Positions 3,655 through 62,979 of a stretch of DNA of 64,000 nucleotides are shown piece after piece (the first letter of the stretch is position 1; the number at the start of each line of letters is the position of its first letter). The DNA is taken from positions 1-64,000 of the forward strand of contig JAFRHH010000020.1 in the NCBI GenBank assembly GCA_017433405.1. Reading direction: 5' to 3'. The translations under genes and the position numbers were made by a program. Source of the stretch: Clostridia bacterium (GTDB lineage: Bacteria; Bacillota; Clostridia; Christensenellales; Aristaeellaceae). The notes under the pieces are model-generated. The model saw only the letters and a program-made list of their open reading frames with translations, was not told the DNA's origin and made no database searches.

Positions 3655-3686
3655 CGAAAATCCGGAACCATTGAAGATTGAGAGGA

Positions 3687-3777
3687 GACAGATTCTGTCC
3701 GCGAACGCTCCGGCGAAGCGGTTACAAAATCGTCATCCGGACAGCATGAAAGACGTGAACTAACGTTCAGAGAGGAG
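3687..3777 (+). repeat. RBS-bearing dispersed element, copy 1
   Basis: This copy starts with GACAGATTCTGTCCGCGAAC and ends in GAGGAG just before the DUF4956 start. Its outer arms (GATTCTGT and ACAAAATC) form an imperfect palindrome, and its inner arms GTGAAC (3755-3760) and GTTCAG (3765-3770) flank TAAC. Related copies are listed elsewhere in the window. It lies within an apparent operon, so it would be transcribed. Confidence 0.8.
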
Positions 3778-3784
3778 ACCAAAC

Positions 3785-4456
3785 ATGACCTTCAGCGATA
3801 TTTTCAAATCCAACTTTCTGGCGAACGTAACCTCGGTGACCATTCTCGATATGTTCCTGGCCCTGGCCCTTTCCTTCGCGATCGGCCTGTTCATCTTCCT
3901 GATCTATAAGAAGACCTATGCCGGGGTGATGTATTCCTCCAGCTTCGGCGTCACCCTGATCGCCATGACCATGATTTCCACCTTCGTCATTCTGGCGGTG
4001 ACAAGCAACGTAGTGCTTTCTCTCGGCATGGTCGGCGCCCTGTCCATCGTCCGGTTCAGGACGGCCATCAAGGAGCCGATGGACATCGCCTTCCTCTTCT
4101 GGTCCATCGCCGCCGGCATCGTGCTGGCTGCGGGACTGATCCCGCTCGCGGTCGTCGGCAGCGTGATCATCGGGATCATCATCCTGGTGTTCGCGAACCG
4201 GAAGGCCCATACCAATCCCTATATCGTGGTGCTCCAGTGCGAGAATCAGGACGGCGAAAACAAAGCGACCGCCTTCCTGAAGGAGCATACGGAACGGATG
4301 AACGTCAAGAGCAAGAGCGTGCAGAAGGGCGCGATTGAGCTGAACCTGGAAATCCGGCTGAAGGACGCCGCGACGGACTTTATGAATGAACTGGCGGAGA
4401 TGGACGGCGTGCGCAGTGCGGTGCTGGTCAGCTATAACGGGGACTACATGGGCTGA
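3785..4456 (+). CDS. DUF4956 domain-containing membrane protein
   Basis: The 223-residue protein has about four membrane segments in its first 145 residues, then a soluble domain with a beta-alpha-beta appearance. The signature GALSIVRFRTAIKEP followed by a hydrophobic stretch is typical of DUF4956. ATG 3785 sits 8 bases after the GAGGAG that ends element copy 1, so the element supplies the ribosome site. The gene lies between the VTC and Cthe_2159-like genes. A role in handling polyphosphate or a surface polymer is inference from that arrangement. Confidence 0.88.
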   Translation: MTFSDIFKSNFLANVTSVTILDMFLALALSFAIGLFIFLIYKKTYAGVMYSSSFGVTLIAMTMISTFVILAVTSNVVLSLGMVGALSIVRFRTAIKEPMDIAFLFWSIAAGIVLAAGLIPLAVVGSVIIGIIILVFANRKAHTNPYIVVLQCENQDGENKATAFLKEHTERMNVKSKSVQKGAIELNLEIRLKDAATDFMNELAEMDGVRSAVLVSYNGDYMG

Positions 4457-7760: not shown

Positions 7761-8234
7761 ATGAAGAAACGGTTTGCGGCGATGATGCTGGCGCTGTCCC
7801 TGATGCTGGGAGCGGCCGCGGGAGCTCAGGCGGAGATTATTCCCGCTCACGGACAGGGCCAGATCGGGCTGGAAGCGGTGGTGCTGTGCGAAAAGCTGAC
7901 GATCCGCCAGGAGCCCCGGTCGAACGCCGCGGCGGTGAAGACTCTGAAATACGGAGACTGGTTCATTGTGCTGGAGCAGCAGGACGGGTGGGCGAAGTGC
8001 ATCCTTTCGGATTCGATCGATGAAGAACCCGCGGGATGGGTCAACGCGGCCTATCTGGCCATTGACCCCGCCTGGTTCCGGACGGAGGCGTTAACGCCGG
8101 TCTACGCCTGGAACAGTACCGCGGCTCCCCGGGTGGGGCTGCTGGACACGAATAAGACGCTGCCCATTCTGAAGATCGAGGGGGCGTGGCTGCTCGTCAG
8201 CCTGCGGGGCGCCGTCGGCTGGATCCGTCCCTGA
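7761..8234 (+). CDS. Secreted SH3-like domain protein
   Basis: The 157-residue product begins with a signal peptide ([20 protein letters not shown], cleavage near AGAQA). The mature part carries two bacterial SH3-like units. The first (about 38-95) contains [20 protein letters not shown] and ends with GWVNAAYL; the second (about 110-157) ends with GWIRP. Such domains usually bind peptidoglycan or other wall parts. No catalytic domain is present, so it may be a small wall-binding protein. A promoter lies upstream and a strong terminator downstream, so it is probably monocistronic. Confidence 0.8.
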
Positions 8235-8248
8235 ACGCGGCTGAACGC

Positions 8249-8285
8249 AAAAGGAGCGATGGGTTTCCCACCGCTCCTTTTCCTT
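8249..8285 (+). terminator. Terminator after the SH3-like gene
   Basis: GGAGCG and CGCTCC arms with an inner GGG/CCC pairing are followed by TTTTCCTT. The A-run before the first arm means it could also stop transcription from the minus strand. Confidence 0.85.
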
Positions 8286-8292
8286 GGGGGGA

Positions 8293-8358
8293 TTAGTCAA
8301 AGTCGAAGAAGAAGTCGTCAAACAGGTCCTCGTCCTCTTCGGGACCGTCCGCGTGGAA
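8293..8358 (-). pseudogene. Acidic C-terminal remnant beside element copy
   Basis: On the minus strand the frame reads DFHADGPEEDEDLFDDF and then FFDFD before a stop at 8293, which looks like the acidic tail of a real protein. No start codon or body precedes it; it runs straight into an antisense-oriented element copy at 8360-8443. A bidirectional terminator follows it. The best reading is a gene whose body was lost. Confidence 0.4.
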
Positions 8359-8359
8359 G

Positions 8360-8443
8360 TCTGTGAACGTTGGTTCACGTTTGTCTTTCTGCGGCGGATG
8401 ACGATTTTGCCCCCCTTCGGGGCGGCTTTCCGTCATCGCTTCC
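8360..8443 (-). repeat. RBS-bearing dispersed element, minus-strand copy
   Basis: On the minus strand this copy contains CAAAATCGTCATCCGCCGCA and a perfect inner palindrome GTGAAC-CAAC-GTTCAC (8363-8378 on the plus strand). After the palindrome the expected GAGGAG is replaced by sequence of the acidic remnant, so no functional start follows. Confidence 0.75.
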
Positions 8444-13934: not shown

Positions 13935-14006
13935 AAGGCGGCAGCGGCTGCAAAACTGTCATCCGTCGCGAAAATGGCAGACATGAACTGCCCTTCACAG
14001 AGGAGG
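13935..14006 (+). repeat. RBS-bearing dispersed element, copy 2 (5' part missing)
   Basis: This copy holds GCAAAACTGTCATCCGTCGC, then GGCAGACATGAACTGCCCTT, then CACAGAGGAGG. The first outer arm is missing. It supplies the ribosome site for the LRR gene at 14013. Confidence 0.75.
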
Positions 14007-14012
14007 AGCACC

Positions 14013-15005
14013 ATGAACAGACGAACCGCCGGGCCGGTGTGCCTGATCCTGACCCTCATCCTGACGACGGCCCTTTGGGGCGGCGCCGCGGCGGCGGATA
14101 TCCGCTTTGGCGATCACGTCTATACCGGGGACGAGACCTTCGTTGACCTCGGGGAAACGGCCATCACCGATTTTGACGGGCTGGCCGCCTTCCTGGAGCA
14201 GATGCCGAAGGTCAGACAGGTGAACATGTTCGGAACCCGGATGTCCGCGGAGCGGTGCGACGCGCTGGCGGAGAAGTTTCCGGAGATCCGGTGGGGCTGG
14301 ACCATGGTGCTTCGGGGCAGCGATCATGAGCATCTGATCCGCACGGATCAGACAGCCTTTTCCACCCTGCACAGCAATAAAACATCCCATCACCGCAGCG
14401 AGGATTTCAGCATCCTGAAATACTGCTGGAATCTTTTTGCCCTGGATATCGGACACAATTCCGTCAAAAGCCTGGACTTTCTCGAGAATCTGCCGGATCT
14501 GCGGGTGCTGATCATCGCCTGCAACGAGGTGGAGGATATCACCCCCATCGCGAAGCTGAAAAAGCTGGAGTACGCGGAGCTGTTCAAGAACAATATCCGG
14601 GACATGAGCCCGGTGGCGGGGCTGACGAACCTGCTGGATCTGAATATCTGCTTTAACCATATCCAGAATCTGGAGCTGGTGAAGGGGATGACCTGGCTCA
14701 AGCGGCTCTGGATGTACAGCGCCCGGGTGTTCAACCAGGCCTATCCGGACGCGGAGGCCCGGGGGTATCGGGAAGCCCTGCCGGATACCGAGGTGGATAC
14801 GAAGCACTATTCCACCGCGGGAACCTGGCGGTATCTGGACTCGAAGAACACCGTCAAGGCGCCCCACTACGCCGTGATCACGGCGATGTTCGGGGATACG
14901 TCCCTGCGGCCGAAGATCGTCTACATCCCCTTTGAGGACAGTCACCCCTTTACGGAGGAGGAGCTGGCGGCGATCGAAGCGGCCCGGGTGAAGTACGGGG
15001 AATAA
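14013..15005 (+). CDS. Secreted leucine-rich repeat protein
   Basis: The 330-residue product begins with a signal peptide (about residues 1-30, ending GGAAAADIR). Residues about 40-75 contain an LRR-like cap, and 140-235 hold at least four repeats of the LxxLxLxxNxI type, such as [20 protein letters not shown] and [20 protein letters not shown]. The C-terminal 90 residues are not repetitive. Such proteins usually mediate protein-protein contact at the surface. ATG 14013 follows the AGGAGG of element copy 2; an upstream ATG inside the element has no site of its own. Confidence 0.8.
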
Positions 15006-18147: not shown

Positions 18148-18180
18148 GCGGGGAGCGAACCCCCGGCGCGGGAGGAAAAA

Positions 18181-18258
18181 ACGTTTTGTCCGCGCGGGAA
18201 CGGCCACGAAAGGCTGATCCGGACAACACGACAGACCTGAAAGGACGTTCGAAGAGGA
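18181..18258 (+). repeat. RBS-bearing dispersed element, copy 3 (divergent)
   Basis: This copy starts with ACGTTTTGTCCGCGCGGGAA and contains ATCCGGACAACACGACAGAC, close to ATCCGGACAGCAT of copy 1. It ends in GACGTTCGAAGAGGAAG before ATG 18265. The inner palindrome is decayed. Confidence 0.6.
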
Positions 18259-18264
18259 AGCACC

Positions 18265-20910
18265 ATGAAGGGGAAGCACAGCGCAACGGTGACGATCGGC
18301 CTGATCGGCGGGATCCTGGTGATGGCGATCCTGGTGCTCGGAACCCTGTGGATGGGGCAGAGCGCCCGGAAGGATACCGGGGAGGCCGTACGGTCCGTCA
18401 GCCTTCTGTATCTGGACGAGCTGGCCGGCAGGCGGGAGCAGGTGGTCGAGGCCAACCTGCAGGAGAAGATCGGCGTTATCCGGACCGCCATCGAGCTGAT
18501 GACGGAGGAGGATCTGAGCGACAAGGCGCATATGGAGGCCTATCAGGCCCACATGAAGCAGCTGTACCGGCTGGATAAGTTCGCCTTCGTGGATGCGGAC
18601 GGGCTGATCTATACCTCCGTCGGAACCCAGGACAACATCGGCGACTACGCCTTCGACTACCGGAGTCTGAAGGAGCCGGAAATCTCCCTGCTGAATCCGG
18701 AATCCCCGGAGCGGAAGGTGGTCATCGCCGTGCCGGTGAAGCTGACATTTCAGGGGAAGACGCTGACGCTCTGCTTCATGGAAATCAGCATGCAGGAGAT
18801 GCTGGCGGGGGTTTCGCTGGAGGCGCAGGAGGGCAGCGCCACCTTCTGCAATCTCTATACCAGCGGGGGCATGGCCCTGAGCAATACGGTACTGGGCGGC
18901 CTGGCCCAGGAGGATAACCTGCTGGAGGCGATGAAGATCGCCGAGTTCGAGGACGGCTATACCTACGAACGCTTCCGGGGCGAGTTCGAAAACGGGCACA
19001 GCGGCGTCGTATCCTTTTCCTACAAGGGGATCCGCGAGTCGCTGAGCTACCGGGCGATCGACGGGACGGACTGGCTGCTGACCTATCTGATCCGGGAAAG
19101 CGTGATCAGCGAGCGGATCAGCTCCGTGTCCAGCGGGATTATCAGCCGCAGCGTGATTCAGTCGGCCGCGACGGTCGTGGTGCTGCTGACGATGTTCCTG
19201 TTCATCCTCTATCAGATCCGGAAAAACATGAGGCTAACGCTGGAGAAGGAGACCGCCGACGCGGAGAACCGGGCGCGGCAGGAGGAGATGGAGCAGCGGC
19301 TGGCGCTGCACGAGGAGGTTGTCGAAAAGAGCCGGCAGCTGCAGGAGGCGCTCAGCGCAGCCGAGAGCGCCAACAGGGCGAAGACCGCCTTCCTGTCCAA
19401 TATGAGCCACGAGATCCGGACGCCGATGAACGCGATCATCGGACTGGACAGCATTGCCTTGAACGACCCGACAATCTCCCCGACGACGCGGGACTATCTC
19501 GAAAAAATCGGCAGCTCGGCCCATCATCTGCTGAGCCTGATCAACGATATCCTGGACATGTCCCGGATCGAGTCCGGGCGCATGACGATCCGGAGCGAGG
19601 AATTTTCCTTCTCGGATCTGATTTCCCAGGTCAACACCATGATCGGCGGCCAGTGCCAGGATAAGAAGCTGCGCTACAGCTGCCAGATCAGAGGGCAGGT
19701 CGACGACGCCTATATCGGCGACGGCGTGAAGCTGCGCCAGGTGCTGATCAACATGCTGGGCAACTCGGTCAAGTTCACCCCCGAGGGCGGCGAGGTGACC
19801 TTCCTGATCGAGGAGGCCGTCCGGCTGGAGGACAAGACGACCCTCCGCTTCGTGATCCGGGATACGGGCATCGGCATGAGCGAGGAATTCCTGCCCCATC
19901 TGTTCGACACCTTCGCCCAGGAGGATTCCTCCAGCACCAGCCGCTACGGCAGCACGGGCCTGGGCATGGCGATCACCAAAAGCATCATCGAACTGATGAA
20001 CGGCCAGATCGCGGTGCAGAGCAAAAAGGGCGAGGGGACGACCTTCACGGTGACGCTGACGCTGAAGCGGGCCGGCGCGCAGCCGTCGCAGGACGAGATC
20101 GAGCTGAGGCCGGGCGAGATGCACGTGCTGGTCGTCGACGACGACCCTGTGGACTGCGAGCACGCGAAGGTCGTGCTGGGCCAGGTGGGCGTCCACTGCG
20201 AGACCGCCTCCTCCGGCGAGGAGAGTATCGGCATGATTCAGGTGCGCCACGCCCGCCGGGAGGATTACGATCTGGTGCTGGTGGACTGGCGGATGCCGGG
20301 AATGGACGGCGTGGAAACGGCCCGGAAGATCCGGGAGATCGTGGGGCAGGAGATGCCCATCATCATCCTGACGGCCTACAGCTGGGAGGAGATTGAACAG
20401 GAGGCCCGGGAGGCCGGGGTGGATTCCTTTGTATCCAAGCCCCTGTTCGCGGGGAACGTCATGGACCGCTTCCGGGACTGCTTCCGGCGGAAGCACCAAA
20501 GCCTGCTGGAGCGGACCTGCGACCTGAAGGGGCGCAGGGTGCTGCTGGCGGAGGACGTGTCGGTCAACGCCGAAATCCTGATGATGGTGCTCAGCATGCG
20601 GGAGATGGAGGCGGAGCTGGCGGAGAACGGACGGATCGCCGTGGAGAAGTTTGCCGCCCATGAGCCGGGCTATTACGACGCGATCCTGATGGATATGCGG
20701 ATGCCGGAGATGGACGGGCTGGAGGCCACGCGGATCATCCGCGCCATGGACAGGGAGGACGCGAGGACGATTCCGATGATCGCGCTGACGGCCAACGCCT
20801 TCGATGAGGACGTTCAGCGCAGCATGCAGGCAGGGCTGAACGCGCATCTGAGCAAGCCGGTGGATCCGGAGCTGCTCTTCAGCACCCTGGAGCATCTGAT
20901 CAGGCCCTGA
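18265..20910 (+). CDS. Hybrid sensor histidine kinase with two receiver domains
   Basis: The 881-residue protein begins with a membrane helix (about 8-32), an extracytoplasmic sensor region (about 35-290) and a second helix (about 293-318). A coiled coil leads to a HisKA domain with the phospho-acceptor His382 in NMSHEIRTPMNAI, then a HATPase domain with RDTGIGMS and STGLGMAI. Two receiver domains follow, with phospho-accepting Asp674 (VDWRMPG) and Asp810 (MDMRMPE) and Lys in SKP. No output domain or separate response regulator is nearby, so signalling probably runs through another protein. ATG 18265 follows the GAGGAAG of element copy 3. Confidence 0.93.
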   Translation: MKGKHSATVTIGLIGGILVMAILVLGTLWMGQSARKDTGEAVRSVSLLYLDELAGRREQVVEANLQEKIGVIRTAIELMTEEDLSDKAHMEAYQAHMKQLYRLDKFAFVDADGLIYTSVGTQDNIGDYAFDYRSLKEPEISLLNPESPERKVVIAVPVKLTFQGKTLTLCFMEISMQEMLAGVSLEAQEGSATFCNLYTSGGMALSNTVLGGLAQEDNLLEAMKIAEFEDGYTYERFRGEFENGHSGVVSFSYKGIRESLSYRAIDGTDWLLTYLIRESVISERISSVSSGIISRSVIQSAATVVVLLTMFLFILYQIRKNMRLTLEKETADAENRARQEEMEQRLALHEEVVEKSRQLQEALSAAESANRAKTAFLSNMSHEIRTPMNAIIGLDSIALNDPTISPTTRDYLEKIGSSAHHLLSLINDILDMSRIESGRMTIRSEEFSFSDLISQVNTMIGGQCQDKKLRYSCQIRGQVDDAYIGDGVKLRQVLINMLGNSVKFTPEGGEVTFLIEEAVRLEDKTTLRFVIRDTGIGMSEEFLPHLFDTFAQEDSSSTSRYGSTGLGMAITKSIIELMNGQIAVQSKKGEGTTFTVTLTLKRAGAQPSQDEIELRPGEMHVLVVDDDPVDCEHAKVVLGQVGVHCETASSGEESIGMIQVRHARREDYDLVLVDWRMPGMDGVETARKIREIVGQEMPIIILTAYSWEEIEQEAREAGVDSFVSKPLFAGNVMDRFRDCFRRKHQSLLERTCDLKGRRVLLAEDVSVNAEILMMVLSMREMEAELAENGRIAVEKFAAHEPGYYDAILMDMRMPEMDGLEATRIIRAMDREDARTIPMIALTANAFDEDVQRSMQAGLNAHLSKPVDPELLFSTLEHLIRP

Positions 20911-22679: not shown

Positions 22680-22725
22680 ACATCCGGACAGAACAGCAGA
22701 CGTGAACTGCCGTTTACAGAGGAGG
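22680..22725 (+). repeat. RBS-bearing dispersed element, copy 4 (3' half)
   Basis: Only the 3' half is kept: CATCCGGACAG, GCAGACGTGAACTGCCGTTT and ACAGAGGAGG. It supplies the ribosome site of typA, 12 nt before ATG 22738, a rather long spacing. Confidence 0.75.
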
Positions 22726-32266: not shown

Positions 32267-32326
32267 TGGCAACATCTGTCCAGTCTGACTGAAATCCGAA
32301 CCGCCCCAACTGACCGAAACCTCACC

Positions 32327-32355
32327 TTGCCAGACGGGGAATTTACCCTTACAAT
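32327..32355 (+). promoter_or_regulatory. Predicted promoter of the BspA-like gene
   Basis: TTGCCA (32327-32332) and TACAAT (32350-32355) are separated by 17 nt. It lies upstream of element copy 5, placing that element inside the 5' UTR. Confidence 0.65.
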
Positions 32356-32387
32356 CAAGATCAGATATTTCTGTTTCAGCGGGAGGA

Positions 32388-32482
32388 GACAGATTTTGTC
32401 CGCGAATCGCGTCAGCGTGAGCGGTACCAAAATCGTCATCCGTCCCAGAGCGGCAGACATGAACTGACGTTCACAGAGGAGG
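32388..32482 (+). repeat. RBS-bearing dispersed element, copy 5 (most complete)
   Basis: This 95-nt copy is the best type sequence. It opens GACAGATTTTGTCCGCG, whose arm pairs with the later ACCAAAATCGTC, then CATCCGTCCCAGAGCGGCAG, then ATGAACTGACGTTCAC and AGAGGAGG. It ends 9 nt before the TTG start of the BspA-like gene. Confidence 0.85.
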
Positions 32483-32491
32483 AAGACGAAA

Positions 32492-35400
32492 TTGAAGAAG
32501 CGGGAAAGGCTGGCCGGACTGATGGCGGCGCTGCTGGCGATGCTGATGCTGTGGCCGGGAACCGGAATGGGTGAGAACGCAACGGATGCGGTAAATACGG
32601 CGGCGGGGTCGGTGGGGGCTGAAACAACGGTTCCGGAAGAATATACCCTGAACTGGTATTACAACATCGAAACGGGCTACTTCATGGCCCCGGTCTATCC
32701 GGAGGAGGAATGGAGCGAGACCGACTGGGACGGGGAAGGATACGGAACCAGCTATGTGACGGACGCGGATGGGAACGCGGTGATTACCGGATTTCCCGCC
32801 TGGGATACCGGGCTTCCGGAATCCCTGAACGGTCATCCGGTGACCGCCATCGGGCGTCTGAAGGTGTTCAGTCAGCTCGACTATCCGGAGGAGGTGACCC
32901 TGCCCGCGACCGTCGACCGGATTGAGGACATGGCCTTCGCTTCCTTTCCCCGGATGCCGTGGATTGTCCTGGCGGGGGAAAATCCGCACTTTGCCGTTCG
33001 GGACAGGATGCTGCTGGAGCCGGAGACGGGCCGGCTGATCCTGCGCTTTGACGACGGGGCCGCCTGGACGAAGAATCCGGACGGGAGCTGGAGCCTGCCA
33101 AAGGAGCTGACCGTGGCGCAGGTGCCGGAGGAAATCCGGAAGATCGACGGCTACGCCTTTCGCGGCCAGGGCCTGACGGAGATCCGCCTGCCGGAGGGGC
33201 TGAGAACGATCGGGGACGGAGCCTTCAGCGGCTGCGTGGAGCTGCGGAAAATCAATATTCCGGCGAGCGTGACGGATATGGGCGGGAACCCGTTCTTCGG
33301 CTGTCCGGCACTGGAAACGGTGGAGCTCCCGGAGAATCACCCGGTCTTCGAGCTCCGGGACGGGCTTTTGATCCGGAAGGCGGATCAGTGTCTGGTCGCC
33401 GCGCTGCCCGCGGCCGTCCGGGAAGGAAGGCTGACCATTCCGGAGAGCATTCGGAGCATCGGCGATTTTGCCTTCTATGGACTGCCGCTCCGGGAGCTGA
33501 CGATCCCGGATACGGTCGGAAGCATCGGAACGGGGGCGCTGGCCTTCTGCACGGAGCTGCGGACGGTGACCCTGCCGGAGGGCCTGACGGAGATCGCGCC
33601 GCTGCTGCTGGCCGAAACCGGTCTGGAGGCGGCCGACGTGCCGGCGCGGGTGGAATCCATTGGGAGCTATGCCTTCAGCGGCACCGGGATTCCGGCGCTT
33701 CAGCTGCCGATGGGGCTGATCACGCTGGAAAAATCCGCCCTTGACCGCACGGGCCTGAAGCGGCTGGAGCTGCCCGGAAGCCTGCGGGAGGTGGGGGACT
33801 GGGCGCTGGCCAACAATCCTTTACTGAAGCGGGTGGATTTTCGGGCGGCTGCGGAGCGGATCGGTGATTTCGCTTTTTACAACTGCGAGGCGCTGCAAAG
33901 TGTTTATCTGCAGGAGGGCTTCTCCACGATTGGAGAGAGCGCCTTCGAATACTGCGAAAACCTGGAATATCTGAGCCTTCCGGAGGGCGTGACCGCCCTC
34001 GGGAGGAATGCCTTCCACTCCTGCGGAAAGCTGAGATGGTGCGAGTTGCCGGAAAGCCTGACGGAGATCGGGGAGGCGGCCTTCTTTGAATGCAGGGAGC
34101 TTTCCTCCCTCCGGATTCCGGGCAGCGTAAAGACGATCGAAAGGGACCTGTGCAGCGGATGTGAGGAACTGTACAGCCTTGAGCTGGAGGAGGGAATCGA
34201 AAGGATTGGCGATTACGCCTTTTCCCGCTGCCGGCAGATCAGGGCGCTGCTGCTGCCGGACTCTCTCCGGTCCATCGGAGAGAACGCCTTCAGCTATTGC
34301 AGCCGTCTGACGGAAGTTACCGTTCCGGAAGGAGTGACGGAGATCGGAAAGGACGCCTTCCGGAAATGCTCCGAAAAACTCGTCGTGCAGGTGCGGAAGG
34401 ACTCTTTCGGGGAAAAATATTGCGTGGGAAACGGCCTGCAGGTCTTTACGGGCTCGGCGGAGAAGCAGGAGGTTTCCCTGCAATGGACGATGGACCTGGA
34501 TCGTGAGCCCTTTGAATGTCCCGTTTATTCCTGGGAACGTTCGACAAAGGATTACAGCTTCGGTTATCTGGTGGGACTGGATGGAAACGCGACGATTACC
34601 AGAGTAAGCTGGGGAGTCGGCGAGATCCCGGAAATCCTGGACGGTCATCCCGTGACGGCTGTGGCCCGGATGGCGATCTATGACCATCTGGACGGAATCG
34701 ATTTTCTTTTCATTCCGGCCTCTGTCACGCGGATTGAACCCATGGCCTTCGCGCTGCTTCCCTACACGCCGAAGATTTTCCTGAGGGAGGGCAATCCGCG
34801 CTTCATCGTGGAAAACGATATGCTGCTGGAGCCGGAAACGGGCCGGCTGCTGCTGCGGTACGACGAGGAACGCGCCGGGATTGAGATGGGAGAAGACGAC
34901 TGGGAATACAGAGAGTTGCCGATTCAGAAACGGATTGAGGTGCCGGCGGGAATCCGGGTGATTGACGGCTACGCTTTCCGGGATCAGGCCATGGAGGAGG
35001 TCCGTCTGCCGGAGGGACTCAGGGAGATCGGTGAGGGCGCCTTCAGCGGCTGCCGGGATCTGAAGAGGGTGAACATTCCCGACAGCGTAACGGAACTGGG
35101 AGCCAACCCCTTCTTCGGCTGCGGCGCCCTGGAAAATATCACGATCTCCAGGGACCACCCGGTCTTTGAAATCCGGGACGGGCTTCTGATCCGGAAGGCG
35201 GATCAGACCCTGGTCGCGGTCCTGCCCCAATCCGTGAAAAACGGCGTGCTCACGATTCCGGAATCCATCCGGAGGATCGGAAAGTTTGCCGGCCGGGGAA
35301 TGAGCATGACGTCCGCGGTGATCCCGGATTCAGTCAGCGCCATCGAAGACGGCGCGTTCATGAATTGTGGTAATCTTCAGGCGATCCGCCTGCCGCAGGG

Positions 35401-43648: not shown

Positions 43649-43734
43649 GACAGCCGCGAACGTGTCAGCGAAGCGGCAGCAAAATTGTCATTCGCCGCAG
43701 CGCGGCGGACATGAACTGACGCCCGCTGGGGGAG
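43649..43734 (+). repeat. RBS-bearing dispersed element, copy 6 (detached from a gene)
   Basis: It reads GACAGCCGCGAACGTGTCAG, then CAAAATTGTCATTCGCCGCA and ATGAACTGACGCCCG. Here the GAGGAG end has become GGGGGAG and no start codon follows; the AraC promoter begins 30 bp later. This copy is probably outside the AraC transcript. Confidence 0.75.
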
Positions 43735-48789: not shown

Positions 48790-48827
48790 ACCACCGCCCT
48801 GATTTTTTGAAAGACCGGCGCATAAAG

Positions 48828-48856
48828 GCAGACGTAAAATAATGTACACGGAGGAG
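48828..48856 (+). repeat. RBS-bearing dispersed element, partial copy before the S41 gene
   Basis: GCAGACGTAAAATAATGTAC and ACGGAGGAG follow the 3' end of the element (GCAGACATGAACTGACGTTC, ACAGAGGAG) at most positions. The inner palindrome is decayed. Confidence 0.45.
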
Positions 48857-50642: not shown

Positions 50643-50669
50643 GGGACAGGGGGACGGTTCTTCCGTCCC
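50643..50669 (+). repeat. REP-like palindrome
   Basis: GGGACAGGGGGACGGTTCTT followed by CCGTCCC contains 7-bp arms GGGACGG (50651-50657) and CCGTCCC (50663-50669). A variant lies at 54842-54872. Such GGGGACGGTTC palindromes occur in many Firmicutes genomes, often with REP-associated transposases; none is in this window. Confidence 0.6.
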
Positions 50670-50704: not shown

Positions 50705-52939
50705 ATGCAGCCTCATCGATTCAGGACCACCATCCAAAGCCCGGCGGAAATCAGCCCTGCGCTGGAATCGGCGGAGCAGGCACTGTCCTCCGGGGAGCGG
50801 CGTGAAAGCGCGACCCTCAGCGTCCTGATCGCGGAGGAAATCCTGAAGAAGCTTCCCTGGGACGGAACGCTGAAAGCGGTGCTGACCGTCGGGGGCATCC
50901 ATTCCCCCTTCCTGGAGATCCGCTGCCCGGCCTCCGCCGCAGCCTCCGGTACCGCGGCTACCGCCGGCACCTCTGGAACTTCTGGCACCCCGACCGCCGC
51001 CGGCACCCCGGCTTCCGAAACCGCCGCCGCCGGCACCTCCGGTTCCCCGGCCGCCTCCCCCTCCGCCGAAGCGGCTCAGCTCGAATCGGAAATCAGCGAA
51101 AGCCTCCTCTCCCAATTCGACGCGTATATTGACCGCCAGACCCGGAAGGGGACTGAGATCTGGCGAATCCGGATGGATCGACGAACCCATCCCGACATGA
51201 CGGACGAGATCTTCGCTTTTTATGAGCATGCCGGCGAGCGGCAGCGGCAGCAGCCTCTTTCGCTCTTTGCTGAATTATCGAAGCATCATCCGGCGATGGT
51301 CTCCCTCTCGATGCTGAACAAGATCGTGAAGCATCTGTGCGCGCTGATGCTGCCGGTTTTCGCGGCCAACGTGATCGACTCCCTCTCCTCCTGCGCCTCC
51401 TTCTGGGACGCGCCGGTGCTCCTGAATATCCTTTTTTCGATCCTCTCCCTGACGATCAACCTGATCTGCGCGACGCTGGACAATACGTATTACCAGCGCT
51501 TTACCCGCTGTGTGGAATCCGGCCTGAAGATGGCCATGGTCCAGAAGCTTCAGGCGCTCTCGCTCCGGTATTATCAGAAAACGCCGACGGGCAGGGTGCT
51601 TTCGAAGCTGGTTTCCGATATCCAGTTTATCAAGCTCCTGATCAATGAGCAGATGACCTTTGTCCTCCATCTGGGGGTGGATCTGGTCTTCGCCGTCGTG
51701 CTCTGCCTGATCCGGATGCCCCTGATGCTGATTTTCTACGCGGTGATGGTGCCGCTCTCGGTCCTGCTGATCCGCCATTATTCGGTCCCGATCCAGCTGA
51801 GCAAGGCCCAGATGCGCCGCCGGACGGAAACCTCGAACGCCGCCTTCTCTGAAATGCTCTCGATGATGTCCCTGACCCGGTCCCACAGCCTGCAGCGAAA
51901 CGAGTACAACGACCTGTCGGCGAAGGTCTGGGAGGTTCAGACCGCCGCGAAATATCAGGATCTGCTTCAGATCCGCCTGAATAACGTAGGCTACGGGGTG
52001 GCGCAGGGCTTCCGGATCCTGTGCCTGGCCTTCGCGGTTTTCCTGGCCTTCCGCGGGATTATCGGCGTTTCCGCGGTCGTCCTCTTCCTTTCCCTCTATG
52101 ACGCCCTGATCAACAGCATCCAGAAGGTCCTCGATACCATGCCCCAGATTACCCAGGGGCTGGACAGCCTGAAGAGCGTGAATGAAATCATGTTTGAAAA
52201 GGATGTGGAGAAAAACGGCACCCGGATGCTGCCAGCGCCGGTTCGGGGCGAAATCGAGCTGGATCACGTGTCCTTCGCCTATGAGGAAAACAGGGAAGGC
52301 TGCCTGCGGGATGTGTCTCTGAAGGTGCCCGCGGGAACAAGCGCCGCCCTGATCGGAAAATCCGGCTCCGGAAAATCGACCCTGCTGAACCTGGTTCTGG
52401 GGCTTTATTCTCCCCAGAGTGGCCGGATCCTGATCGATGGGGTCGATCTGGACGAGCTGGATAAGCGCTCCTTCCGCAGGCACGTGGCCGTGGTGCCCCA
52501 GATGCCGATGCTTTTCTCCGGTACGCTCTGGGACAATCTTGTCTACGGGCTGAAATATGTTTCGGTGGACCAGGTTCTCTCCGCCCTCGAAAGCGTCGGT
52601 CTGGGAGCCCTGGCGAAAGAGCATCCCGACGGGCTCCTGCGGCCGGTCGCCGAGGGCGGCCTGAACTTCTCCGGCGGCCAGCGTCAGCGGATCGCCATTG
52701 CCCGGGCCCTGCTGCGCCAGCCGCGGATCCTGATCTTTGACGAGGCGACCAGCGCCCTGGACCGGGAGGCGGAACAGGAGGTGCAGGAGGCGATCAACGC
52801 CGTTCTGGGCACCTGTACGATCCTGATCGTCGCCCACCGGCTCTATACCCTGAAAAACGTGGACCAGGTCTGGCGGATCGAAAACCGCGGCCTCACCCCA
52901 GTGAACCCGTCCACGCTGATAGACGAAACTCCTCTGTGA
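50705..52939 (+). CDS. ABC exporter (fused permease-ATPase) with extra N-terminal region
   Basis: The 744-residue protein has an N-terminal soluble region (1-170), then a six-helix exporter domain (about 195-480) and an ATPase. The Walker A is GKSGSGKST (551-559), the signature LNFSGGQRQ and the Walker B ILIFDEATSALD. The N-terminal region contains SVLIAEEILKKLPWDGTLKA and a low-complexity Ala/Thr/Gly/Pro stretch (about 77-125). It may be a degenerate regulatory ATPase-like domain, which is a guess. ATG 50705 follows CAGGAGAG. The stop codon lies in an antisense copy of the dispersed element. The substrate is unknown. Confidence 0.9.
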   Translation: MQPHRFRTTIQSPAEISPALESAEQALSSGERRESATLSVLIAEEILKKLPWDGTLKAVLTVGGIHSPFLEIRCPASAAASGTAATAGTSGTSGTPTAAGTPASETAAAGTSGSPAASPSAEAAQLESEISESLLSQFDAYIDRQTRKGTEIWRIRMDRRTHPDMTDEIFAFYEHAGERQRQQPLSLFAELSKHHPAMVSLSMLNKIVKHLCALMLPVFAANVIDSLSSCASFWDAPVLLNILFSILSLTINLICATLDNTYYQRFTRCVESGLKMAMVQKLQALSLRYYQKTPTGRVLSKLVSDIQFIKLLINEQMTFVLHLGVDLVFAVVLCLIRMPLMLIFYAVMVPLSVLLIRHYSVPIQLSKAQMRRRTETSNAAFSEMLSMMSLTRSHSLQRNEYNDLSAKVWEVQTAAKYQDLLQIRLNNVGYGVAQGFRILCLAFAVFLAFRGIIGVSAVVLFLSLYDALINSIQKVLDTMPQITQGLDSLKSVNEIMFEKDVEKNGTRMLPAPVRGEIELDHVSFAYEENREGCLRDVSLKVPAGTSAALIGKSGSGKSTLLNLVLGLYSPQSGRILIDGVDLDELDKRSFRRHVAVVPQMPMLFSGTLWDNLVYGLKYVSVDQVLSALESVGLGALAKEHPDGLLRPVAEGGLNFSGGQRQRIAIARALLRQPRILIFDEATSALDREAEQEVQEAINAVLGTCTILIVAHRLYTLKNVDQVWRIENRGLTPVNPSTLIDETPL

Positions 52940-52956
52940 ACGTGCCCTCACGTCTG
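52929..52956 (-). repeat. RBS-bearing dispersed element, antisense partial copy at the ABC gene end
   Basis: On the minus strand this reads GCAGACGTGAGGGCACGTTC followed by ACAGAGGAG, matching the 3' end of the element. The ABC exporter gene ends inside it (TGA 52937-52939). Confidence 0.65.
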
Positions 52957-53013
52957 CAGACAGCCCCCTCAGCGATGCCTTTCAGAACAACTCACCCCGA
53001 AAGGAGCAACCCC

Positions 53014-56391: not shown

Positions 56392-56429
56392 GCAGCTTAC
56401 AAAGACTTAAACTGACGTTCACGGAGGAG
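56392..56429 (+). repeat. RBS-bearing dispersed element, partial copy before the M16 gene
   Basis: GCAGCTTACAAAGACTTAAA and CTGACGTTCACGGAGGAG agree with the element 3' end (ATGAACTGACGTTCACAGAG, GAG). It supplies the ribosome site of the M16 gene, 8 nt before GTG 56438. Confidence 0.6.
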
Positions 56430-61990: not shown

Positions 61991-62019
61991 TGGACAGGCC
62001 ACGGGCCGAGTGATATAAT
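61991..62019 (+). promoter_or_regulatory. Predicted promoter of the CXXC membrane protein gene
   Basis: TGGACA (61991-61996) and a perfect TATAAT (62014-62019) preceded by TGA are separated by 17 nt. It lies upstream of element copy 7, so that copy is in the 5' UTR. Confidence 0.75.
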
Positions 62020-62056
62020 GCGGATTATCAGTCGGGATACAAACACAGGCAGGGAA

Positions 62057-62152
62057 GACGTTTTTTGTCCGAGAACCGCGTCAGCGGGAGCGGTGCCAAA
62101 ATCGTTATCCGTCGTAGTATGAAAGGCAATGGACTGAGGTTCCACAGAGGAG
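62057..62152 (+). repeat. RBS-bearing dispersed element, copy 7
   Basis: It reads GACGTTTTTTGTCCGAGAAC, CAAAATCGTTATCCGTCGTA, GGCAATGGACTGAGGTTCCA and GAGGAG. It supplies the ribosome site of the gene at 62161. Confidence 0.8.
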
Positions 62153-62160
62153 ACACAGGA

Positions 62161-62979
62161 ATGACGCGGAAGAAAGTCTATCTGATCCTGCTGGCGGCGC
62201 TGCTGGCGGGGATGACGGCGCTGATGTCCGCCGCGACCGTCCGGATCTGGCAGGAAGGCTCCGCCCGGAAGGCGGCAAACCCGCTGGAAGCGGTTTATAC
62301 CCCGGAAAGGGTGGAGGGGGCGATCCTTCGGCTGAGCCCGCTTCTGTTCGCGGTGATCGGCATGACGGCGGCGGGGCTCGTGCTGGGAATCCGGGACGAG
62401 AAAAGCGCCCGGCCGGTTCCCTCGCCGGAGGCGGAACGGAATCTGCTGGCCGCTCGGCTGGAAACGCCGGGGAAGGAGATCCGGGAGGAGCGGAAAAAGC
62501 GGCAAATCCTCCGCTGGGTCCGGCGGGCCGTCTTTGCGCTGTGCATGATCCCAATCGCGGTCTATTGCGCGGATCGGGGGCATTTTCCTGAAAGCGATCT
62601 GGAAGCCATGCTTGCCTCCCTGGTTTTGCATACGATGCCCTGGGCGGCGGCGGGGCTGGCGGTTCTGCTGATCGGATCGGTTCTCGAAGAGAAAAGCATT
62701 CGGCGGGAAATTGAGATGCTCCGGGCGCGGCTTAAGGCGAAAAGCGGCGGTCAGTCCGCGGCGGCGGAGAGCCCGTCGCCAGCGCGCTCGCCGGGATCGC
62801 CGGCAATGGACGGCCGGCCCGCGGCCGCGGGAAAAACGGGCCGGGGAACCGCCGCGGTTCGGGCGGCCCTGCTGCTGGCCGCCGCGCTGCTGATTGCGCT
62901 TGGCGTATTGAACGGCAGCCTGAATGACGTCCTGATGAAGGCAATTAATATCTGTTCGGAGTGTATTGGCCTTGGATAA
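62161..62979 (+). CDS. CD1871A-family CXXC membrane protein
   Basis: The 272-residue protein has about four membrane segments (near 8-26, 62-80, 123-143 and 155-175, with another near 235-250) and ends in DVLMKAINICSECIGLG. This CxxC-containing end is the signature of the CD1871A family of clostridial membrane proteins of unknown function. Cytoplasmic linkers are rich in Arg and Glu. ATG 62161 follows the GAGGAG of element copy 7. The downstream polyferredoxin starts 1 bp after the stop, so the two probably form a redox unit. Confidence 0.82.
   Translation: MTRKKVYLILLAALLAGMTALMSAATVRIWQEGSARKAANPLEAVYTPERVEGAILRLSPLLFAVIGMTAAGLVLGIRDEKSARPVPSPEAERNLLAARLETPGKEIREERKKRQILRWVRRAVFALCMIPIAVYCADRGHFPESDLEAMLASLVLHTMPWAAAGLAVLLIGSVLEEKSIRREIEMLRARLKAKSGGQSAAAESPSPARSPGSPAMDGRPAAAGKTGRGTAAVRAALLLAAALLIALGVLNGSLNDVLMKAINICSECIGLG

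Follow-up and report, generated by a model that had tools for sequence, protein, structure and literature searches.

SINEs are marked by 5' truncation, a fixed 3' end, a 3' hairpin and no coding capacity, and MIRUs by sense orientation and tandem copies. In the extracts of PMC12548453, MIRUs are short, apparently mobile repeats at translation starts with little effect on the expression of the gene hit, inserting at start codons and having an internal ORF coupled to that gene. Excerpts of PMC3049150 and PMC2229807 describe BOX, RUP, SPRITE, ERIC and YPAL as non-autonomous repeats that are transcribed with neighbouring genes.

The repeat described here is a non-coding unit of about 90 nt, composed of hairpin A, hairpin B and a 3'-terminal GAGGAG, in this order. 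It was found in the window (the whole 64-kb stretch of DNA analysed) and throughout the corresponding genome (G000), a gut-type Clostridia with 2.53 Mb in 92 contigs and 89% completeness. Compared by description and not by sequence, MIRU has the closest known behaviour, since both are sense-oriented and the translation signals appear little altered, judging from a Shine-Dalgarno (SD) spacing like that of a relative. On the other hand, the site of the element is the SD and not the start codon, there is no conserved internal ORF, and a covarying hairpin is present. With SINEs and other eukaryotic retroposons it shares the 5' truncation, the fixed 3' end, the 3' hairpin and the non-coding character, but it is bacterial, has neither A tail nor target duplication, and no reverse transcriptase (RT) tracking it was found. 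BOX, RUP, SPRITE, ERIC and YPAL are, like it, small interspersed non-autonomous repeats, although they are described as MITE-type repeats that have terminal inverted repeats and duplicate their target, and neither feature was found here. The REP/REPIN sequences of RAYT systems are also high-copy intergenic hairpin DNA, and this genome has a RAYT. However, REPs, including those tagged with CGTC or GTAG, measure 20-40 nt, form head-to-head pairs and lie downstream of genes in the excerpted text of PMC3733652, whereas the element has about 90 nt and two different hairpins, is arrayed head-to-tail and lies 5' of genes. We therefore rejected the label of CGTC-REP on grounds of size, pairing and dimer geometry, despite a CGTC string at the foot of hairpin A. 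A literature search drawn mostly from outside subscription journals retrieved no SD-site repeat. The element is very probably mobile. The full description, of a non-coding repeat of some 90 nt that spread as a mobile element, in sense orientation, often at SD sites and copied through RNA, has in our judgement slightly less than an even chance of being correct.

With a profile trained on 72 copies, all from outside the window, 8 copies were found in the window at E<1e-6, and the dispersed family of the original prediction is thus real; in 20 windows simulated with an order-2 Markov model, a related profile, partly window-trained, gave 0 matches at E<=1e-3. Full copies lie on the plus strand at 3684..3777 (1e-26), SD-positioned before the ORF 3785-4456 (DUF4956), at 32385..32481 (2e-25), with GAGGAG before the TTG 32492 of a BspA-type LRR protein, and at 62056..62152 (4e-14), SD-positioned before the ORF 62161-62979. 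A diverged and internally shortened copy covers the full span at 18172..18260 (+; 18184-18258 at 5e-7), before the ORF 18265-20910 encoding a histidine kinase-response regulator. The 5'-truncated copies are at 13936..14005 (+; model 28-94; 6e-12), SD-positioned before the ORF 14013-15005, and at 8360..8414 (-; model 37-90; 8e-9), which is not SD-positioned and adjoins a small minus-strand ORF (8091-8378). At 22681..22724 (+; 7e-10) there is only the 3' half (model 51-94), as the SD of the BipA gene (ATG 22738), and the truncated copy at 43654..43725 (+; model 16-86; 2e-11) is not SD-positioned.

Three partial copies, previously placed at 56392, 52929 and 48828, proved to be weak. The first is a 3' end fragment at 56403..56429 (+; E=0.004), SD-positioned before the GTG 56438 of an M16 peptidase. 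The others are 3' fragments that may be due to chance, at 52929..52957 (E=0.02), which belongs to the minus strand, and at 48818..48856 (+; E=0.05), SD-positioned before the ATG of the ORF in the 48842 region (S41 peptidase). The GAGGAG end of the predicted unit stands, while its start moves from 32388 to the GGAG at 32385. The claim that copies end shortly before start codons applies to the gene-proximal ones, with roughly 6 to 13 nt between GAGGAG and the start, but not to the copy placed at 43649, which has no start codon at SD distance. As predicted, the genes have no common role: the window targets (DUF4956, LRR, histidine kinase-response regulator, BipA, BspA-type LRR, and S41 and M16 peptidases) are unrelated by Pfam, and one target protein has no Pfam match. 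The promoters proposed for two copies correspond to promoter-like sites, TTGCCA-17-TACAAT at 32327-32355 upstream of copy 32388 and TGGACA-17-TATAAT at 61991-62019 upstream of copy 62057; from sequence, the placement of both copies in 5' UTRs is plausible. In agreement with the absence of a named family, Rfam gave 0 matches above the gathering score in the window, with only chance-level ones at 32300-32560.

The consensus of the element is GGAGACAGATTTTGTCCGCGAACGCGTCAGCGAAGCGGTTACAAAATCGTCATCCGGACAGAATGGCAGACGTGAACTGACGTTCACAGAGGAG. Its information content rises steeply at model position 1 and returns to the background level after position 94 (57 non-tandem full copies). In head-to-tail arrays, with a period of 90 to 92, consecutive copies overlap by GGAG, the 3' GGAG of one being the 5' GGAG of the next. 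Terminal inverted repeats were not found, the ends GGAGACAG and CAGAGGAG not being inverted copies of each other. No target duplication was detected when flank k-mers of 2-4 were compared with shuffled pairings at five offsets (no excess likeness), a comparison in which a fixed GGAG duplication is indistinguishable from element sequence. The 5' end is the raggeder one, with the exact terminal base in 38 of 68 copies against 61 of 77 for the last base (p=0.004). The element has no conserved ORF; its consensus contains a single open frame, and a coding repeat was rejected since length variants among the copies interrupt it.

Hairpin A occupies the first ~55 bases, and its fold in the copy at 32388 has a z-score of -3.5. 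Hairpin B, GTGAACTGACGTTCAC, is followed by AGAGGAG and adjoins the 3' end of the element. Among copies of G000 alone, covariation is slight (2/20 pairs). With the addition of diverged copies from three congeners (G026, G043 and G042), 21 cells were changed on both sides against a shuffled mean of 6.8 (0/500 shuffles reach 21), and the covariation score of hairpin A was 0.153 vs 0.076, with 93.5% of cells paired; a slid-structure control yielded at most 3 both-sides-changed cells. There was no excess in that alignment of pairs changed on both sides (4 vs 3.3 in shuffles) or of pair types (10 vs 10.2). As read from these alignments, hairpin A is retained via compensatory changes in the diverged congener copies. 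Judged by eye, the shape of hairpin B persists in the congeners with a shifted register.

A covarying hairpin beside an SD, in a sense 5' location, would also suit a cis-regulatory RNA (riboswitch or regulon leader), inherited rather than inserted. We regard this reading as highly improbable, since the target genes are unrelated, truncated copies and tandem arrays are present, and the distribution is too patchy, 39 of the 44 other genomes of the genus being without a match and relatives being devoid of the element at orthologous genes. Only 1 of 19 congener copies examined precedes a homologue of a gene bearing a copy among the 136 sampled from G000. The common regulon leader offered by the original prediction is therefore not supported, while its alternative of a spreading non-coding element is, given the sense orientation, the SD-like GAGGAG end and the lack of an Rfam match.

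The family extends far beyond the window. The 14-base core of hairpin B, TGAACTGACGTTCA, has 245 matches with <=2 mismatches in G000, against 1 for the reversed control; a covariance model recovered at least 149 copies (149/150 candidates scored), and 94 copies were found in 446.5 kb of contiguous sequence. The density in these stretches leads to 533 copies genome-wide, an overestimate because they were chosen from match-rich contigs, and the window (9 matches at E<=1e-3) leads to about 356; we estimate the copy number at 300 to 550. Within the genus, matches occur in 6 of 45 genomes (its own included): at least 92 in G000, 18 in G026, 12 in G043 and 1 each in G042, G009 and G018, the last being weak and not recovered by the subfamily profile. 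In a sample of the order (396 genomes, with only 10 candidates per genome scored), only G000 matched. The exact 3' motif was absent from 84,980 species genomes, where records of G000 itself were possibly left out, no exact 22-base match was found in viral contigs, and one element copy had no match in plasmids and phages.

The single G009 copy lies within a block of ~1.6 kb with 96-99% identity to G000, against 0.68 to 0.95 in the surrounding 200-base windows; to judge from this, it probably arrived with exchanged DNA. The block (L230:9300-10900, G009:C45) holds a truncated and a full element copy, and the two species differ more elsewhere. The histidine kinase gene at window position 18265 has the element before its homologues both in G000 (18172-18260) and in G026 (G026:C88:12786-12886), which could be the result of descent from an old insertion or of a coincidence of two insertions. 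Another G026 copy (L035:1501-1597) combines the 5' part of its own subfamily with a G000-like 3' part and is possibly recombinant.

Insertion rather than shared descent is indicated by the comparison with G009 (1.79 Mb of it examined; ~87% identity to G000 in a test region), which lacks the element at syntenic sites. Both flanks were found there for 46 of 136 copies, and the element is absent at the sites among the alignments listed (of 22); with genes ~80-88% identical, the flanks have diverged too far for the junctions to be placed at single-base precision. At the BipA site, no element is found in G009, G037 and other relatives, and G009 and G037 have AAGGAGGAAA where G000 has the element's AGAGGAGGAAA. 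The spacing between SD and start codon correlates between G000 and G009 (Spearman 0.80, n=13), with a mean difference of 1.3 nt vs 2.65 when permuted (p=0.0008, n=13); these are 13 of 21 ortholog rows, 1 being dropped for having a copy in both genomes and 7 for having no G009 start codon at the aligned place. As the 13 orthologues without the element already have an SD-like motif at near-equal spacing, the gene had an SD earlier and the end of the element lies on it. The element thus occupies an SD site instead of supplying a missing one, contrary to the proposal that it brings its own SD to the genes.

Placement was examined with a simple purpose-made gene caller (366 genes). Of the 94 copies, 84 are intergenic with two neighbours, 6 are inside called genes and 4 at edges. 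Between co-directional genes there are 56 sense copies and 1 antisense; 23 copies are in divergent regions, pointing toward the downstream gene, and 4 in convergent ones. In 79 of the 84 intergenic copies, element and downstream gene share a strand, against 58% under random insertion. Seventy-three copies retain the whole 3' end and are followed by a gene on their own strand; 32 of these stop <=20 nt from a called start, compared with 5.4% under random insertion. An ORF rule places a start 3-15 nt downstream in 50/102 copies (22.6% at shifted places), and a looser start-codon rule separates weakly (71/128 copies against a control mean of 48). About half of the copies put GAGGAG at SD distance from a start codon (31/53 full and 15/28 truncated ones). 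In G026, G043 and G042, 16 of 19 distinct copies are SD-positioned, five further rows having been left out as opposite-strand matches of the palindrome. With a ribosome-binding sequence at the end of the element, translation of the gene is predicted to remain possible once the element has inserted.

The copies outside SD distance, about half of the total, are what would be expected if the element moved by a DNA route with no targeting of the SD and selection alone left the sense, SD-positioned copies. We consider this unlikely, since even away from an SD there are 17 sense copies against 1 antisense, and the SD spacing agrees with that of G009.

The truncation pattern is one-sided. The 446.5 kb contain 58 full copies, 32 truncated at 5', 3 at 3' and 1 at both ends (p=4e-7), the fixed 3' end with frequent 5' truncation that is typical of retroposons. 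These counts come from contiguous sequence only, as the 136-copy set over-samples 3' ends (many of its loci were obtained by the 3' motif). Any length may be missing from the 5' side, with starts from 8 to 64, and with separate half-models B is found alone 35 times and A alone 8 times. The skew, part of which selection for the SD could explain, is also seen in copies not at an SD (13 vs 3, p=0.02). The 3' part of the truncated copies is not more diverged than that of the full ones (0.862 vs 0.880, p=0.97), and no SD-like remnant above control is observed to their left (15/41 vs 13/41). An autonomous, longer copy with the same ends was not seen among the 3'-truncated cases inspected.

This one-sided truncation, as in retroposons, favours reverse transcription primed at the SD, and we give the spread through RNA a little under an even chance. 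The ragged 5' end and the truncated copies' lack of extra divergence are likewise features of target-primed reverse transcription. A more specific version, proposed tentatively, makes the element a bacterial SINE, whose small structured RNA would copy itself into DNA with antisense SD strands as primers. The 3' GAGGAG of this RNA would anneal to CTCCTC-3', the antisense strand of an SD, and the DNA end there would serve as primer for reverse transcription; the resulting cDNA, whether full-length or incomplete, would then become attached upstream. With the gene-proximal SD keeping its position, the insertion would hardly disturb translation, and hairpin B, near the 3' end, would be a natural recognition signal for a putative RT. 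Such annealing would explain together the sense orientation, the placement at SDs, the constant spacing and the absence of duplication. Against the RNA route, deletion after insertion can likewise produce a 5'-truncated copy, with selection for the SD favouring the kept 3' end, and the common GGAG is equally expected from an element of IS200/IS605 type with target GGAG. If the SINE reading is true, each insertion falls before a gene, in sense direction, with the ribosome-binding site left intact. The element exemplifies a parasite-like repeat suited to a gene-dense genome, inserting where it does the least harm and restoring the signal at its target. Should the RNA route be correct, this would be, to our knowledge, the first SINE-like retroposon in bacteria. 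The inserted copies may also regulate, as the element gives many unrelated genes the same hairpins in their leaders, a ready source of new regulation.

Also against the RNA route, the search for the corresponding enzyme gave no RT that tracks the element: RVT_1 is present in 3 of 6 carriers and 11 of 39 non-carriers, and none was found in G043 (77% complete) despite its 12 element matches. A specific RT was therefore rejected as a marker of the element. In favour of the route, G000 encodes two group II intron RTs; an origin of the element from these introns was rejected because element profiles have only chance matches in the RT loci. Against it, we found no master locus whose transcription would begin at model position 1, only 1 of the full copies showing a promoter, a weak one. 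G000 also has an orphan RT (L257:642-1901 (+), G000:C42) with weak RVT_1, a YSDD motif and 33-37% identical relatives in three congeners; it was not found in G026, G043 or G042.

The ends of the element are compatible with the IS200/IS605 geometry (subterminal hairpins, no terminal inverted repeats, a fixed tetranucleotide at left). It could accordingly be a minimal single-strand DNA transposon of this type, with target GGAG and right end GGAG, which a Y1 (HUH) transposase would mobilise in trans. Inserting 3' of GGAG, it would likewise reconstitute the SD, and the truncated copies would be later deletions. A hairpin near each end, the lack of inverted repeats and of target duplication, and the GGAG common to adjacent copies in tandem arrays agree with this, as does the RAYT-type Y1 transposase gene of G000, which has an element copy ~150 nt upstream of its start. 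Nevertheless, beyond the element copy that locus has a RAYT-type palindrome of its own, the palindromes on either side of the RAYT genes of relatives have a GGGACGGT core and no relation to the element (12 of 12 loci listed), and many RAYT-bearing congeners have no element (in a survey that left out G042 and G043). Strong 5' truncation and a ragged 5' end would not be expected, nor an orientation that follows the gene. A single-strand transposon with GGAG as its target accounts for the ends as well as the RNA route does, but not for the truncation, and we rank it below that route, as a possible but rather unlikely origin.

RAYT as the mobiliser was downgraded: the RAYT genes here and in relatives carry other palindromes, the element not being the one that flanks them, and many genes have the element close by in any case. 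G000 yielded a single Y1 transposase gene, which is RAYT-like (L031:805-1548 (-), G000:C5) and has one GGGACGGT-core palindrome upstream. Many congeners (L078-L106) have 1 to 4 RAYT genes flanked by palindromes with this core, an abundant REP system in the genus. REP-like GGGGACGG palindromes also occur in the window, at 50650 and 54849, and there are 28 core matches in the 446.5 kb. Finally, fragments matching only the C-terminal end of RAYT, with one internal stop each, are found in G021:C71, C6 and C86 and in G028:C29, and are perhaps deletion derivatives.
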